6,281 nt of DNA, taken from the NCBI GenBank assembly GCA_937889485.1, contig CALAPG010000398.1, positions 1 through 6,281 of the forward strand, in the 5' to 3' direction. Below are positions 1 to 5,707 of this stretch, piece by piece; the stretch's first letter is position 1; every line of letters starts with the position of its first letter. The notes under the pieces were generated by a model, which made no database searches, had not been told where the DNA came from, and worked only from the letters and a program-made list of their open reading frames with translations. The stretch comes from an uncultured Moraxella sp. (GTDB lineage Bacteria > Pseudomonadota > Gammaproteobacteria > Pseudomonadales > Moraxellaceae). Made by a program: the position numbers and the translations under genes.

Positions 1-515
1 GCGCCGTGGTAGGAGACAGTCCTTTTGCGGTATTATTGCCCGACGTGATATTAAACCCCTATGCCAGTGACTACAACACCCATAACCTGGCCTTTATGCT
101 ACAAGCATTTTGCAACTATCAGCATTCACAAATTTTGGTTGACCCAGTAGCCGAAGCCGATATCCATAAATACGGCATTGCCAAACTCAAAAGTGCCCAA
201 ATCATTGAAAAAACAGCTGCTAATCAAACCTTTGCGGTAACAGGATTTGTTGAAAAACCCAAAGCAGAGGTTGCGCCATCTAACCTTGCAGTGGTGGGAC
301 GCTATGTCTTTAACAATGCCATCTTTGATTACTTAGAAACCACCAAACCCAGTGTGGGTGGTGAGATCCAACTCACAGACGCCATTGATGCATTGATAGC
401 CACACAAGGGGTAGATGTGGTCAGTATGGTAGGCAATAGTTTTGATGCGGGCGATATGACCAGTTATATGCAGGCATTTTGTTATTTTGCTGATAAATTT
501 GAAAACTCGCATTAA
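1..515 (+). CDS. galU: UTP-glucose-1-phosphate uridylyltransferase, 3' part (5' end outside window)
   Basis: GalU makes UDP-glucose and pyrophosphate from UTP and glucose-1-phosphate in the cytoplasm, supplying UDP-glucose for surface polysaccharides and for GalE downstream. The frame is open to the left edge (first full codon at base 3), so about 171 codons of a protein usually near 290 residues are present and the N-terminal nucleotide-binding loop is missing. Seen directly: VGDSPFAVLLPDV near the start, whose Asp belongs to the family's metal/sugar-phosphate site; VEKPK at about 249-263 with the conserved Lys; then APSNLAVVGRYVF, EIQLTDAID, and FDAGD near the C-terminus. These match bacterial GalU in the same order. 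The GTG at base 6 is internal to the conserved region and is not a real start. The gene ends TAA at 513-515, and pgi begins 15 bp later, consistent with one transcript. Family assignment is firm; only completeness is limited by the window edge. Confidence 0.95.
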   Translation, partial: AVVGDSPFAVLLPDVILNPYASDYNTHNLAFMLQAFCNYQHSQILVDPVAEADIHKYGIAKLKSAQIIEKTAANQTFAVTGFVEKPKAEVAPSNLAVVGRYVFNNAIFDYLETTKPSVGGEIQLTDAIDALIATQGVDVVSMVGNSFDAGDMTSYMQAFCYFADKFENSH

Positions 516-530
516 TCCAAAAGGCTAACC

Positions 531-2198
531 ATGGGCTCAGTAGATTTAGATAAAGACCATCTACCCTTGTCGGCTTGTCACCAAGCTTGGCAAAATTTGT
601 ATCAAGACGCCAAGCAGGCGCCTAACTTATCTATGCTATTTGATCAGCAAGATCAAAGCGGTAGCGTGCCTAGAGGTGAGGCTTTTCAATGCACAGCTTG
701 CGACATCTTGATGGACTTTAGCAAGCAAAAATTGACTAAAAAAACTCTAACGGATTTGCTACACCTAGCTAAAGTATCTGACTTAAAAAGAAAAATTAAT
801 CAGCTTATAGCAGGTGATATTGTCAATGATACAGAAAATCGCCCCGCGTTACACACCGCCCTACGGCAACCAAAGTCTGAGGTATTGTTCTTAAATGAGC
901 AAGATGTTATTGCCAATGTGCATGCAAGCCTTGATAAGGCAGAAGGGCTCGTCAATCGTATACGTACAGGCATATGGCGTGGCTACGCGGGCAAAGCGAT
1001 TACCGATGTGGTCAATATTGGGGTGGGTGGCTCAGATTTAGGGCCAGTCATGGCAACGACCGCCCTAAAGGAGTGGTCAGATACGGCAATTCAAGTACAT
1101 TTTGTTTCCAATATGGATGGCACGCAGCTTGATGGCTTGCTCAAAGTTTTAAACCCACAAACCACCTTATTTATTATTTCTTCCAAGTCTTTTTCTACTA
1201 TTGATACTTTTTCCAATGCCAAAACCGCGCTGTCTTGGCTGTTAGCTAGTCATGATAACAAAGCCACTATTTTGCGCCGTCACTTTATTGGTATTTCGAC
1301 CAAAACCGATAAAATGAGTGAGTGGGGCATTCATGTAGATAATCAGCTACTCCTATGGGAATGGGTGGGTGGACGCTTTTCGATGTGGTCGGTAATTGGG
1401 CTTGCGATTGCTATCAAGATTGGTATGCCCAATTTTCGTGAGCTGCTAGCGGGTGCTTATGCGATGGATCAGCATTTTGCCAGTGCAAAGTTTAGCCAAA
1501 ATATGCCTGTTTTGTTGGGGTTGATTGGGGTTTGGAACAGTACCTTTTTGGGCATCAATGCCCACGCAGTGCTGCCTTATGATGGTAGGTTATCGTTTTT
1601 CCCCAATTATTTAACCCAACTAGAGATGGAGAGTAATGGCAAGTCGGTCAATCGCCAAGGTAATGCGGTCGATTATAATACTTGCCCCATCTTATGGGGG
1701 GATATTGGTTCTAATGCCCAGCATGCGTTTTATCAGCTACTTCATCAAGGTACGCAAGCAGTCAGCTGCGACTTTATTGCGCCCATCCGCCGTTATGCAG
1801 AGGTGCAGCAGGCAAATCCTAATTTGATTGAGCAGCATCAGTTATCGTTGGCCAATTGCTTGGCACAAAGCCAAGTATTGGCATTTGGTAATGATGCCGT
1901 TGATAAAGATGATACAATGGTTGATAAGTTTAAGCGTTATCGCGGTAATCAGCCCTCTACCACGCTCTTGTTAAAACAACTGACGCCCAAAAGTTTGGGG
2001 TCGTTGATTGCTTTGTATGAACATAAAGTGTATGTGATGAGTGTGATTTGGCAAATCAACCCATTTGACCAGTGGGGCGTTGAGGTGGGTAAGGTTATGG
2101 CAAATGCGGTGTTTGATGCACTGGTATCTATGGACACCAACACAAATTTTGATAGCTCGACTAATGCTTTGCTAAAAATCATTCAACAGAATAGATAG
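531..2198 (+). CDS. pgi: Glucose-6-phosphate isomerase
   Basis: Pgi interconverts glucose-6-phosphate and fructose-6-phosphate in the cytoplasm, linking glycolysis/gluconeogenesis to the hexose-phosphate pool used by GalU. The 555 residues are close to the usual bacterial length of about 550. Seen in order: GVGGSDLG at about 164-171; the phosphate-binding SSKSFSTIDT at about 217-226; PGI signature 1 (WVGGRFSMWSVIG); and PGI signature 2 (INPFDQWGVEVGK). The expected catalytic residues are present: Glu367 in MESNGK, His398 in NAQHAF and Lys521 in VEVGK. The 31-residue spacing of Glu and His equals that of Glu357/His388 in rabbit PGI. The start at 531 follows an AAAAGG Shine-Dalgarno-like run at 519-524. 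The gene sits 15 bp after galU and 4 bp before the UGDH-like gene, so co-transcription is likely. Nothing suggests loss of function. Confidence 0.97.
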   Translation: MGSVDLDKDHLPLSACHQAWQNLYQDAKQAPNLSMLFDQQDQSGSVPRGEAFQCTACDILMDFSKQKLTKKTLTDLLHLAKVSDLKRKINQLIAGDIVNDTENRPALHTALRQPKSEVLFLNEQDVIANVHASLDKAEGLVNRIRTGIWRGYAGKAITDVVNIGVGGSDLGPVMATTALKEWSDTAIQVHFVSNMDGTQLDGLLKVLNPQTTLFIISSKSFSTIDTFSNAKTALSWLLASHDNKATILRRHFIGISTKTDKMSEWGIHVDNQLLLWEWVGGRFSMWSVIGLAIAIKIGMPNFRELLAGAYAMDQHFASAKFSQNMPVLLGLIGVWNSTFLGINAHAVLPYDGRLSFFPNYLTQLEMESNGKSVNRQGNAVDYNTCPILWGDIGSNAQHAFYQLLHQGTQAVSCDFIAPIRRYAEVQQANPNLIEQHQLSLANCLAQSQVLAFGNDAVDKDDTMVDKFKRYRGNQPSTTLLLKQLTPKSLGSLIALYEHKVYVMSVIWQINPFDQWGVEVGKVMANAVFDALVSMDTNTNFDSSTNALLKIIQQNR

Positions 2199-2202
2199 TA
2201 TT

Positions 2203-3474
2203 ATGATGGAACAAATTTTTATTATCGGTGGCAGTAACGAAGCACTAAACACAGCAATTGTAATGGCAAGTTTAGATAGAAAAGTGACAGTCATTTGTTC
2301 GCAAAAGCAAATACAAGATACTCTCCAGCATTATTGTTTTGAGCGACAGATGGTCTCATTGTGGCACTTGTATACAAAAGAGCAAAAAATACAAATCAAT
2401 GAAGAGGTCTCGGCGACATTAGGTCAGATTAAAAATGATGAGACATTTCTATCTGCGACTTTTTGGCTATTTTTGGACACGTTAGATATCAATGATCGTC
2501 AACCCATTTTGGGGGCTATTAATCATCCCAATTGTAAAACAGTGTTGAGTGGGGTGTGCGATATTGGCGCAGCTGATAATATGGCAGCCGCATTGGCAAC
2601 ACCGTATGTGTTTTATTTACCATTTATTTTTATAAAAGATGGCATGAATTTTAGCTCTTTATTACAACCAGAGTTTGTCGTGCTAGGTGAAAAAACACCT
2701 AATAGCTACCTTGAGTGTGATGCAGTGAGTTTTTTTGTGAACCAATCGCAACAAAATCATGTTACAGATATTAAAACTGCTGAGTTCTCACGTAATACCA
2801 TTATGACAATGTTGGCGACTCGTTTAAGTTTGATGAATGAATTATCCAGATTGGCTGATCAACTAAATGTAGATATTACACAAGTAGAAAATATTGTCGG
2901 CAAAGACCCAAGAATAGGCAAAGATTATCTTTCTGCAGGTTGGGGGTTTGGAGGGAAAACGCTGCCTAACGAATTGTTGCGATTGACCCATACATTTCAA
3001 CAATGCAACATCAAAAGCTCTTTAATTCAAAAAGTAATGGCGATCAACGAAGACCAAAAAGAGCTGATTTTTCGCAAATTTTGGCGACACTTTGATGGAT
3101 TTATTGAGCATAAAACCGTGGTCATTTGGGGTGCAGGATATCGTAGTGGCACAGGGAGAACAACAAACTCTGCTATTCATCCTCTACTCAAATTGCTTTG
3201 GTCGTATCAAATTAAGACATTGATTTTTGCCACCAATACAGCATTTGAGCTTCAAGAGCACTACAGTGGTGAACCTTTATTTGAGTTAATACAAGATAGC
3301 TATCAATACTTACCACAAGCCGATGCATTGTTTATTATTAATGTTTCTGCGCATTATAGTTTGAATGTTAATTTGTTGAATCAAGCCAACGTACCTATTT
3401 TTGATGCTAAAAATTTTGTGAATAATGAGAATAAAATAAGACTAACTACCGCATATTATGGTATTGGTCGCTAA
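2203..3474 (+). CDS. UDP-glucose/GDP-mannose dehydrogenase-fold protein with lost catalytic residues (probable pseudoenzyme)
   Basis: This intact 423-residue frame has UGDH-family layout. It has an N-terminal Rossmann-like part (about 3-180), a central helical domain (about 190-290) with NELSRLAD, DPRIG (235-239) and GFGG (248-251), and a C-terminal UDP-binding-like domain (about 304-410) with VVIWGAGYRSGTGRTTNSAI. By eye alignment to Streptococcus pyogenes UGDH (numbering from memory), catalytic Cys260 is Thr253, with Lys263 and Asp264 as Asn256 and Glu257. Lys204 is Arg197, Asn208 is Met201, Thr118 is Gly117, Glu145 is Ile or Phe (141/142), Lys320 is Arg314 and Asp324 is Gly318. The NAD-binding GxGxxG has become GGSNEA (9-14). 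UDP-glucuronate synthesis is therefore unlikely, although the UDP-contacting loop is kept. No internal stop or frameshift breaks it. It starts at tandem ATGs (2203, 2206) 4 bp after pgi with no clear Shine-Dalgarno, suggesting translational coupling. G+C is visibly lower than in its neighbours. Its actual function is unknown. Confidence 0.85.
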   Translation: MMEQIFIIGGSNEALNTAIVMASLDRKVTVICSQKQIQDTLQHYCFERQMVSLWHLYTKEQKIQINEEVSATLGQIKNDETFLSATFWLFLDTLDINDRQPILGAINHPNCKTVLSGVCDIGAADNMAAALATPYVFYLPFIFIKDGMNFSSLLQPEFVVLGEKTPNSYLECDAVSFFVNQSQQNHVTDIKTAEFSRNTIMTMLATRLSLMNELSRLADQLNVDITQVENIVGKDPRIGKDYLSAGWGFGGKTLPNELLRLTHTFQQCNIKSSLIQKVMAINEDQKELIFRKFWRHFDGFIEHKTVVIWGAGYRSGTGRTTNSAIHPLLKLLWSYQIKTLIFATNTAFELQEHYSGEPLFELIQDSYQYLPQADALFIINVSAHYSLNVNLLNQANVPIFDAKNFVNNENKIRLTTAYYGIGR

Positions 3475-3557: not shown

Positions 3558-4592
3558 ATGAAACCCATATCAAACAAAATTTTGGTTACAGGCGGTGCGG
3601 GCTATATCGGTAGTCACACCTTGATTGAGCTAGTACAAGCAGGGTTTGAACCTGTCGTCTACGATAACCTCTCTAACAGTAGCCCCCTTGCGGTTGGGCG
3701 TGTTGAGAAGATTATTGGGCAACCTATTACTTTTATTGAAGGCGATATTCTAGATACTGCGCGACTTGAAAAAACATTTGTCGACCACAATTTTTTTGCC
3801 GTGATACACTTTGCAGGGCTAAAAGCCGTGGGCGAGTCGGTAGCCAAACCGTTATGGTACTATCAAAATAACGTGACAGGCACGTTAAACTTATTAGAAG
3901 TCATGAGTAAGGCTGCCATCAAAAACTTAATTTTTTCTTCATCAGCTACCGTCTACGGTGATCCCCAATCATTACCGATTGTTGAGACATCGCCGCGCTC
4001 TGCCACCAACCCATATGGGCAAAGTAAGCTAATGATTGAACATATTCTAGCGGATTTAGCTAGTTCAGACGCGGAGTGGCAAGCCATTAGTTTGCGCTAT
4101 TTCAACCCCATTGGGGCGCATATTACAGGAACAATTGGTGAAAATCCCAACGGCATTCCCAATAATTTGATGCCTTATATTAGCCAAGTTGCGGTAGGCA
4201 AGCTTAAGCAGCTTAGTGTGTTTGGGGATGATTATGATACGGTAGATGGCACGGGCGTGCGAGATTATATCCATGTGGTGGATTTGGCAAAAGGACATGT
4301 GGCAGCGCTGCAGTACCTCCAAAAACAATGCAAGCTAGGTTTTGAGGCGATTAACCTAGGGACAGGTAAGGGGACTTCGGTGCTGGAGCTGGTGCAAAGC
4401 TTTGAAGCGGTTACAGGACAAGCCGTGCCCTACCAAATGGCACCAAGACGGGCAGGAGATATCGCCAGCTGTTATGCTAGCAGTGGCAAGGCTCATCAGC
4501 TATTAAACTGGCAAGCGGCGCTGGGTATCAAAGAAATGTGTGCAGATACCTGGCGTTGGCAACAACAAAACCCGAATGGCTATGATGCTTAA
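3558..4592 (+). CDS. galE: UDP-glucose/UDP-N-acetylglucosamine 4-epimerase
   Basis: GalE is an NAD-dependent short-chain dehydrogenase/reductase that interconverts UDP-glucose and UDP-galactose, using the product of GalU. The 344 residues match the family length of about 340. Seen directly: TGGAGYIGSHT with the NAD-binding GxxGxxG at residues 12-18; FSSSATVYGD with catalytic Ser129; the YxxxK pair Tyr153/Lys157 in NPYGQSK; LRYFNPIGAH; and GVRDYIHVVDLA. At the position of E. coli Tyr299, which limits that enzyme to UDP-glucose/galactose, this protein has Cys305 (APRRAGDIASC), as human GALE does. Family knowledge therefore predicts that it also accepts UDP-GlcNAc/UDP-GalNAc. The ATG is preceded by a good Shine-Dalgarno. 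It lies 83 bp after the UGDH-like gene, on the same strand. No well-spaced promoter is visible in that gap, so read-through from upstream is plausible. The stop codon lies within a hairpin. Confidence 0.96.
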   Translation: MKPISNKILVTGGAGYIGSHTLIELVQAGFEPVVYDNLSNSSPLAVGRVEKIIGQPITFIEGDILDTARLEKTFVDHNFFAVIHFAGLKAVGESVAKPLWYYQNNVTGTLNLLEVMSKAAIKNLIFSSSATVYGDPQSLPIVETSPRSATNPYGQSKLMIEHILADLASSDAEWQAISLRYFNPIGAHITGTIGENPNGIPNNLMPYISQVAVGKLKQLSVFGDDYDTVDGTGVRDYIHVVDLAKGHVAALQYLQKQCKLGFEAINLGTGKGTSVLELVQSFEAVTGQAVPYQMAPRRAGDIASCYASSGKAHQLLNWQAALGIKEMCADTWRWQQQNPNGYDA

Positions 4593-4717: not shown

Positions 4718-5707
4718 ATGAATGATATTACCGCAGTAGGCGACTTTTCGCACCAAACCGTCTTATTGGCTGAGACGGTTGCTAGCGTCTTAGATACGCC
4801 ATTGTCCAGCTTATCGCAACTTGCGCCCAAATTTTCTGGCATTTTTGTGGATGCCACCTTTGGTAGGGGCGGTCACAGTCTCCTATTACTTAATCATCTA
4901 GATAGTGACAGCCGCCTGATCGTTTTTGATAAAGACCCCCAAGCCATTGCTGCCGCCACAGCACTGGCAAAAACTGATGCCCGTGTCACCGTAGTGCATG
5001 AAAGTTTTGCGCAGTTACAATCGAGCTTACAAGCGCTAGGTATTGTGCAAGTACAGGGAATTATGGCAGATTTAGGGGTTTCTTCCCCCCAGCTAGATGA
5101 CGGCAGCCGCGGATTTAGTTTTATGCGAGATGGGGCGGTGGATATGCGTATGGACACCACGCGTGGGCAGTCGGTGGCACAGTGGCTAGCCGAGGTGGAT
5201 GAAAACACCCTTGCTGATGTGTTATTTAATTATGGCGAAGAGCGTCACAGTCGCCGCATTGCCCGTGCCATTAAGCAAATGCCTGATTACCATTCCACCT
5301 TGCAGCTTGCTGAAGTCATCAAACAAGCCCACCCAAACTGGCAAAAAGGCAAACACCCTGCTACCCAAAGTTTTCAAGCCATGCGGATTTTTATTAACAA
5401 TGAGCTAGGTGACATTGAAGAGTTTTTAGCACAAGCGTTATCGGTGCTAAGTCCAGGTGCGCGCTTGGCAGTGATTAGTTTTCACTCACTTGAAGATCGT
5501 CTCATCAAGCAGTTTTTGCAAAAACATAGCAAAGGGCAATACCCAGGGGATGAGCTGTTACCCATGCCGCCCAAGCGCCCAAAACTTTTATCAAAACCTG
5601 AACGCGTGGCACCTTCCGCTGCTGAAATTAAAAGCAATCCGCGAGCTAGAAGCGCCTGGTTACGTTCAGCCACATGCCTTAAACCTAAGCAGGCACCCGA
5701 CTGCTAG
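4718..5707 (+). CDS. rsmH: 16S rRNA (cytosine(1402)-N4)-methyltransferase RsmH (MraW)
   Basis: RsmH uses S-adenosylmethionine to N4-methylate C1402 of 16S rRNA in the decoding centre; the gene usually opens the dcw cluster. The 329 residues slightly exceed E. coli's 313, explained by a longer N-terminus (11 residues before HQTVLL) and a longer linker at about 27-40. Seen in order: HQTVLLAETV (12-21); SAM-binding DATFGRGGHS (45-54); VFDKDP (69-74); ADLGVSSPQLD (117-127); GFSF (132-135); NYGEER (171-176); SFQAMRIFINNEL (218-230); SFHSLEDR (254-261); and a basic Pro-rich tail with NPRARSA. All the expected motifs are intact. The ATG at 4718 has no good Shine-Dalgarno, so the start is the least certain part. 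An independent promoter lies at 4647-4674. No mraZ lies upstream and no ftsL directly downstream, so the usual dcw context is missing on both sides within this window. Confidence 0.96.
   Translation: MNDITAVGDFSHQTVLLAETVASVLDTPLSSLSQLAPKFSGIFVDATFGRGGHSLLLLNHLDSDSRLIVFDKDPQAIAAATALAKTDARVTVVHESFAQLQSSLQALGIVQVQGIMADLGVSSPQLDDGSRGFSFMRDGAVDMRMDTTRGQSVAQWLAEVDENTLADVLFNYGEERHSRRIARAIKQMPDYHSTLQLAEVIKQAHPNWQKGKHPATQSFQAMRIFINNELGDIEEFLAQALSVLSPGARLAVISFHSLEDRLIKQFLQKHSKGQYPGDELLPMPPKRPKLLSKPERVAPSAAEIKSNPRARSAWLRSATCLKPKQAPDC

Follow-up and report, generated by a model that had tools for sequence, protein, structure and literature searches.

Every capsule (K) gene cluster of Acinetobacter baumannii that has been described (237 types) contains galU, ugd, gpi, and pgm, and ugd is keyed as a uridine diphosphate (UDP)-glucose dehydrogenase (PMC9676051). 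The same source lists D-glucuronate (D-GlcA) under ugd2-ugd5, with number 24 (PMC9676051), and ugd is likewise treated as a dehydrogenase in two other reports (PMC3628348, PMC3726653). GalF, a dead paralogue of GalU, is encoded in a capsule cluster, and GalF of Escherichia coli is reported to contact GalU (PMC11796359). The 6,281-nucleotide stretch of DNA from an uncultured Moraxella sp. that was analyzed here (contig CALAPG010000398.1; the window) contains, four bases downstream of pgi, a gene for a protein similar to UDP-glucose 6-dehydrogenase (UGDH), which we name Ugd* as a putative pseudoenzyme. The loss of catalysis in Ugd* is well supported by its sequence, and we put at roughly 0.55 the probability that Ugd* is a pseudoenzyme that binds a UDP-sugar and regulates or scaffolds the supply of UDP-glucose by GalU and Pgi.

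Judged by its sequence, Ugd* belongs by descent to the UGDH superfamily and is, by the defining features tested, not a UDP-glucose dehydrogenase. The residues referred to here as catalytic, contacting nicotinamide adenine dinucleotide (NAD), or contacting UDP are those assigned in the UGDH literature. The frame at positions 2203-3474 is open and full-length, as the initial annotation had described it. In phmmer alignments to solved UGDHs, the segment GWGFGGKTLPNE of the window protein is positioned over GCGYGGSCFPKD, with Thr253 opposite the catalytic Cys, Asn256 opposite Lys, and Glu257 opposite Asp. Alignment with 41 Cys-bearing relatives places Arg197 and Met201 at the positions of the central-helix Lys and Asn. 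The catalytic Thr and the Glu of the PEF motif, previously assigned to Gly117 and Ile142, are lost; a shift of one residue in each stretch allows their places to be read also as Val118 and Phe141, and neither reading restores Thr or Glu. The claim that every catalytic residue had been replaced calls for caution, because Lys to Arg197, Asp to Glu257, and the second Glu to Asp146 are conservative substitutions. A further loss, absent from the initial annotation, is that of the NAD glycine motif GxGxxG, which is replaced by GGSNEA. The UDP-contacting stretch from DPRIG to GFGG is retained, as had been proposed, and none of the alignments restores Cys or Lys at the active site. Compared with UGDH (solved relatives 3gg2 and 2y0c), Ugd* lacks the catalytic Cys, Thr, Asn, and PEF Glu together with the NAD glycine motif. 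The features of an active enzyme that are missing from the window protein are the Cys, the helix Lys and Asn, GxGxxG, and a TIGR03026 score above the cut-off; the UDP-contacting Arg (DPRIG) and the Gly-Gly loop are present.

The losses were compared site by site in 41 Cys-bearing, 53 basal Cys-less, and 42 derived Cys-less sequences, the derived group being the branch of the window. Relatives were sampled by similarity to chosen queries and not at random. The groups were defined by the active-site loop, so that the Cys column (41, 0, and 0) is split by construction, and the other columns are free. Loci left out as duplicates, short, or broken were L003, L004, L042, L051, L053, L054, L066, L073, L074, L082, L083, L087, L089, L090, and L091, as were frames shorter than 400 amino acids (L041 among them) and L110, a dehydrogenase without the loop motif. 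Because these loci were removed before alignment, the site counts exclude broken copies. In the order Cys-bearing, basal, and derived, the second Gly of the NAD motif is kept in 41, 1, and 2 sequences, and the third Gly in 41, 4, and 0. The central-helix Lys is kept in 41, 52, and 0 (Arg in 42/42 derived), the helix Asn in 41, 24, and 0 (Met in 39/42 derived), and the catalytic Thr in 41, 32, and 2. The corresponding numbers are 41, 3, and 0 for PEF Glu (Asp in 41 basal), 41, 46, and 4 for the second Glu (Asp in 36 derived), and 41, 37, and 0 for the loop Asp (Glu in 42/42 derived). The UDP-contacting Arg and both loop Gly are present in every aligned sequence. The place of the FKP Lys is occupied by Lys in all 53 basal sequences and by Lys or Arg in all 42 derived ones, and the DGRN Arg is found in 53/53 basal versus 2/42 derived sequences (Lys 27, Gln 11); we take these two residues to be K339 and R442 of human UGDH. 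Both Cys-less groups have therefore lost the thiol and the cofactor site, and the basal one has retained the UDP side of the pocket. The branch of the window is, by its sequences, the most derived, with most of the remaining pocket swapped for fixed new residues and a Cys loop of the form GWGFGG-x-T/S/A.

The central UGDH domain (PF00984) is the only Pfam domain detected in the window protein, with 81.2 bits compared to a gathering score of 25.4, and places it in the UGDH superfamily by descent. The NAD domain PF03721 is not detected by Pfam in window Ugd*, and it is the weakest domain in the basal relative L002 (41.7 bits vs 209.4 in the Cys-bearing L103). Against the NCBIfam model of nucleotide-sugar dehydrogenases, TIGR03026, the window protein reaches 132.2 bits, below the curated cut-off of 189.8, which basal relatives exceed barely (P0222, 194.9) or clearly (L002, 227.3; L107, 230.4). 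A three-domain UGDH fold is predicted with confidence, in agreement with the structure expected in the initial annotation. It is very improbable that Ugd* is an ordinary active UDP-glucose 6-dehydrogenase, as it is annotated in Moraxella and Acinetobacter records. That function is given by the database names and by the K-locus gene keys of PMC9676051 and PMC3628348, and P0222, L002, and L107 score as would be expected of it; however, the Cys and the NAD glycine motif are missing, the window protein falls short of the family cut-off, and the published key assigns D-glucuronate of A. baumannii K units to ugd2-ugd5 and not to the ever-present ugd.

Ugd* is not the single odd copy envisaged initially, but one member of a group found in several families of Gammaproteobacteria. 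Database searches gave 678 hits with the window protein, 3484 with an Acinetobacter relative, and 2276 with an Alcanivorax-type query, and the best 120 of each were considered (360 proteins, of which P0001 is the window's own and P0020 and P0259 are fragments). The genus is Moraxella wherever it is named among the best 120 hits of the first search, and the best 120 of the third are named Alcanivorax, Halopseudomonas, Pseudomonas, and Marinospirillum, among others. The catalytic Cys is replaced in 360/360 listed proteins, the window's own included: by Thr (71), Ser (34), or Ala (15) in the window-query set, by Asn (120) in the Acinetobacter-query set, and by Ser (82), Asn (26), Gly (9), Ala (2), or Lys (1) in the Alcanivorax-type set. 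The orthologues examined are thus not ordinary Cys-bearing enzymes. In three Moraxella-type proteins, a Cys occurs later in the loop, off the catalytic place (P0024 and P0088, GWGFGGKSLPCELD; P0046, GWGFGGKSLPGELC). GxGxxG does not occur in the first 20 residues of any of the 360 listed proteins, and within the first 60 it is found in P0280 alone, beyond residue 30 and away from the P-loop place.

The distribution among genomes is similarly broad. A contig scan for exact peptide patterns of the window protein found two loci only. In the family of Moraxella atlantae, some match is present in 284 of 299 genomes, and by their scores 131 listed best matches, down to E 6e-75, can be assigned to the window's type. 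A strong match is present in 57 of 60 genomes from the genus of G300, which has database relatives with the name Acinetobacter; in the best 30 of these 57 loci, Asn always occupies the Cys place and the locus always includes galU. Among the best 30 loci from the order of Alloalcanivorax (244 genomes), 28 are Cys-less and two Cys-bearing, and all of the 28 except L081 have galU or pgi in flanks of about 1.5 kb. The best 30 loci at the class level (321 genomes) comprise seven Cys-less ones, all adjoining galU or pgi, and 23 Cys-bearing ones, none with either gene in the short flanks. The label Psychrobacter-like used below is one that we infer, with organism names drawn from database listings and from L001 and L002.

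In a tree of 108 sequences (90 Cys-less and 18 Cys-bearing), the two kinds are parted by one branch with a Shimodaira-Hasegawa-like approximate likelihood ratio (SH-aLRT) support of 98. The one-branch split recurs, with a support of 87, in a tree of 136 sequences (95 Cys-less and 41 Cys-bearing) with the motif columns blanked, and the branch to the window's group has a length of 2.92. The simplest reading of the trees is that the Cys was lost once. Selection was estimated by the Nei-Gojobori ratio of nonsynonymous to synonymous changes (omega, dN/dS) in 17 gene pairs, none including the window, from stop-to-stop frames, so that short non-coding leaders are included. For Ugd*, 16 of the 17 pairs give an omega of 0.024-0.153, well below 1 as the check proposed in the initial annotation required; for pgi, the range over the same pairs is 0.017-0.254. 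The matched stretch is free of stops in 130 of the 131 listed derived-type matches, the split frames of G267 and G269 being counted among the 130. The same losses in relatives, the low dN/dS, and the predicted fold support the proposal of the initial annotation that Ugd* is a repurposed gene under purifying selection, and not a dying one. The explanation as a decaying single copy was rejected because of the spread, the low omega, and the fixed replacements. It is very improbable that Ugd* is a slowly decaying relic of ordinary UGDH. It would account for the lost catalytic residues, the broken copies in G101, G267, and G269, and the branch length of 2.92, but not for the near absence of stops (130/131), an omega of 0.02-0.15 in 16/17 pairs, replacements fixed in 42/42 derived sequences, and the single branch between Cys-less and Cys-bearing proteins. 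The broken copies L041, L042, and L051 (genomes G101, G269, and G267, respectively) reflect either sequencing error or real loss.

The Cys-less genes keep their losses beside pgi, and often galE, which answers a check proposed in the initial annotation. Among 130 unique proteins, counted after frames shorter than 300 amino acids and dehydrogenases without the loop motif were dropped, 82/89 Cys-less and 2/41 Cys-bearing ones are at most 400 bases from galU or pgi. The Cys-bearing exceptions are L107, with an ordinary ugd ahead of galU-Ugd*-pgi, and L110; a third case, L060, 175 bases from galU, was lost to the length filter. In L110:2343-5342, an exception to the neighborhood rule, a Cys-bearing ugd directly follows a distant homologue of pgi (36% identity). 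Of the seven Cys-less sequences without such a neighbor, six (L021, L022, L035, L040, L041, and L051) are at contig or locus ends, have split frames, or are just beyond 400 bases, and L081 has neither galU nor pgi in its 1.5 kb flanks. Among 49 longer Cys-less loci, each 5.4 kb or more in length and counting that of the window, genes on the same strand within 3.5 kb include pgi in 44, galU in 41, and galU or pgi in 47; galE, the least constant of the three, is present in 21. Both loci without galU and pgi (L035 and L040) end 162 and 270 bases away, at the contig end. One constant partner is not singled out, since the galU-linked loci L156-L158 lack pgi within about 5-7 kb, and L114 and L115 have pgi without galU in the upstream 4 kb examined. 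The gene order is galU-pgi-Ugd* in the window's group (L001, L036-L039, L052-L054) and galU-Ugd*-pgi in Acinetobacter and Alloalcanivorax (L002, L043, L055-L059). No fusion of Ugd* to GalU or Pgi was noticed in the listed frames, in which no search was aimed at fusions. The neighboring genes were also sought in twelve genomes that lack a sound Ugd*: nine of the 15 match-less genomes of the M. atlantae family, and three (G206, G865, and G861) for which the search of the G300 genus gave at best a weak match. Seven of the twelve lack pgi, and nine lack galU when matches of E 1e-5 to 1e-10 are counted as other nucleotidyltransferases. Therefore, galU, pgi, and Ugd* tend to be absent jointly.

A Cys-bearing UGDH query had a match in 25/25 genomes probed, and in ten of them (G012, G027, G044, G047, G072, G079, G087, G113, G187, and G251) the only match was Ugd* itself; eight of the ten are of the Moraxella type, and draft assemblies may miss genes. 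The match besides Ugd* in G002 is a 25% one, and another six genomes encode a protein whose loop reads SFGYGGYCLPKD, the E. coli type of Ugd. In L107:4246-7808 and L106:2501-7407, a Cys-bearing ugd and a Cys-less Ugd* share a cluster with galU. It is conceivable, but quite unlikely, that Ugd* is a structural or regulatory subunit in a mixed oligomer with ordinary UGDH. An ordinary gene is available in the same cluster (L106 and L107) or upstream of galU (L060), and the central domain with the dimer helix is the sole part of the window protein detected by Pfam; the idea is weakened by the 10/25 genomes, possibly incomplete drafts, in which the ordinary-UGDH query finds Ugd* alone.

In the pseudoenzyme mechanism that we favor, UDP-glucose or UDP would sit in the old substrate pocket of Ugd*, the bound ligand would report the state of the UDP-glucose pool derived from glucose-6-phosphate, and Ugd* would contact GalU (or Pgi) as a sensor or regulatory partner. 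The retained residues suggest UDP-sugar binding, and the contact with GalU or Pgi is the least certain step; the initial annotation had proposed GalU, GalE, or a glycosyltransferase as possible partners. The pocket is reshaped in the window's branch (Lys to Arg, Asp to Glu, and the Cys loop), so that the ligand may differ from that of basal members. By analogy of function, GalF of enterobacteria is the nearest precedent, being an inactive yet conserved copy of a UDP-glucose enzyme that is retained in a capsule region. However, GalF is a nucleotidyltransferase relative of GalU, whereas window Ugd* matches UGDH-type families alone and has no homology to GalU. More tentatively, an ancient family of dead UGDHs beside galU and pgi in Moraxella, Psychrobacter-like bacteria, Acinetobacter, Alcanivorax, and Halopseudomonas, misnamed in the A. 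baumannii capsule locus, could sense UDP-glucose and thereby set how much glucose-6-phosphate flows into UDP-glucose via GalU and Pgi. It is unlikely that Ugd* is still an enzyme, catalyzing another UDP-sugar reaction for which the thiol and a canonical NAD site are both dispensable, such as an isomerase, lyase, or hydrolase step. Strong purifying selection, Arg197 and Glu257 as new pocket residues in 42/42 derived sequences, and the Lys kept in 52/53 basal ones are consistent with such a reaction. Derived sequences are nevertheless devoid of Asn and PEF Glu (42/42) and mostly of Thr (40/42), the residue at the Cys place varies across the group (N, S, G, H, A, Y, T, K), as would not be expected of a new active site, and the NAD domain is the weakest in Pfam (undetected in the window; 41.7 bits in L002 vs 209.4 in L103).

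Several observations weigh against the pseudoenzyme reading. The Lys (52/53) and the second Glu (46/53) are still present in basal sequences, in which the Asp (37/53), Thr (32/53), and Asn (24/53) are also frequent, and therefore a partial or different reaction is conceivable from the sequence; moreover, an intact N-terminal Rossmann fold is predicted. The UDP residues that are kept could serve folding or oligomer contacts instead, and UDP-sugar binding is a less safe assumption for the window protein than for the basal ones, because the derived group has lost the DGRN Arg (kept in 2/42). The one-branch split is unstarred (87) after the motif columns are blanked, and long branches are present. 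An omega of 0.43 was obtained for the pair L029/L030, in which substitutions are very few (dS 0.04), and pgi is under tighter constraint than Ugd* in most Moraxella- and Psychrobacter-like pairs. There are a few broken copies, with one stop in G101 and split frames in G267 and G269. The joint absence of galU, pgi, and Ugd* is also explicable by a single deletion of the locus.

The galU-linked Ugd of Acinetobacter, including P0222, which is named A. baumannii, is in the same Cys-less tree group as Ugd*. It differs from that of the window in being of the basal type, with the Lys, FKP Lys, and DGRN Arg, and in the order galU-ugd-pgi instead of galU-pgi-ugd. P0222 is probably the K-locus ugd, judging from its neighborhood and published locus maps. 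Published keys list ugd as the UDP-glucuronate maker of every A. baumannii capsule locus, a function for which the galU-linked Ugd appears unfit. If true, an inactive core Ugd would account for the assignment of K-unit D-glucuronate to the extra ugd2-ugd5, and the K-locus literature fits a core ugd that is no dehydrogenase. Ugd2 is reportedly credited in the title of a 2018 paper by Kasimova. No printed statement that the galU-linked Ugd is inactive was found in the literature searched, which covered few subscription papers. If the reading is right, pathway models and names would have to be corrected across several genera, and it raises the question of what a selected, UDP-sugar-shaped dead enzyme does beside GalU and Pgi.

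The features of the window are listed in Table 1. The genes galU, pgi, Ugd*, galE, and rsmH follow one another in this order, all on the forward strand.

Table 1 Coordinates of genes and of Ugd* residues in the window
Feature	Position	Strand	Details
galU	3..515	+	5' end cut by window
pgi, glucose-6-phosphate isomerase	531..2198	+	NF001211, 719.6 bits vs cut-off 492
Ugd* coding sequence	2203..3474	+	423 aa, ATG to TAA, open
Residues 9-14 GGSNEA, degraded NAD glycine motif GxGxxG	2227..2244	+	alignments
Gly117/Val118, place of catalytic Thr (STVPVG), lost	2551..2556	+	alignments
Residues 140-147 PFIFIKDG, place of PEFLxEG	2620..2643	+	first Glu lost, second is Asp146
Arg197 (catalytic Lys place) to Met201 (Asn place)	2791..2805	+	derived sequences: Arg 42/42, Met 39/42
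Residues 235-251 DPRIG...GWGFGG, UDP-contacting stretch, kept	2905..2955	+	95/95 Cys-less sequences keep Arg and both loop Gly
Thr253 (Cys place), Asn256 and Glu257 (Lys and Asp places)	2959..2973	+	phmmer alignment; Glu257 type in 42/42 derived
Arg314, place of FKP Lys	3142..3144	+	Lys 53/53 basal; Arg 24, Lys 18 of 42 derived
Lys403 of DAKN, place of DGRN Arg	3409..3411	+	Arg 53/53 basal; Lys 27, Gln 11, Arg 2 of 42 derived
galE, UDP-glucose 4-epimerase	3558..4592	+	TIGR01179, 455.6 bits vs cut-off 262.3
rsmH	4718-5707	+	

An Rfam scan found no small RNA in the window. The segment 5739-6281, about 540 bases past rsmH and an overlapping frame, contains no frame of at least 60 amino acids and no Rfam match, even at E up to 0.5. 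A plasmid origin of the window was rejected, as there is no near match in the plasmid collection. Database proteins nearly identical to Ugd* differ from it mostly in C-terminal blocks (window 3418-3453 and 3166-3474): most differences of P0014-P0018 are at residues 406-417, and those of P0019 are mainly from residue 322 on. The blocks look like the result of allele exchange entering from the galE side.
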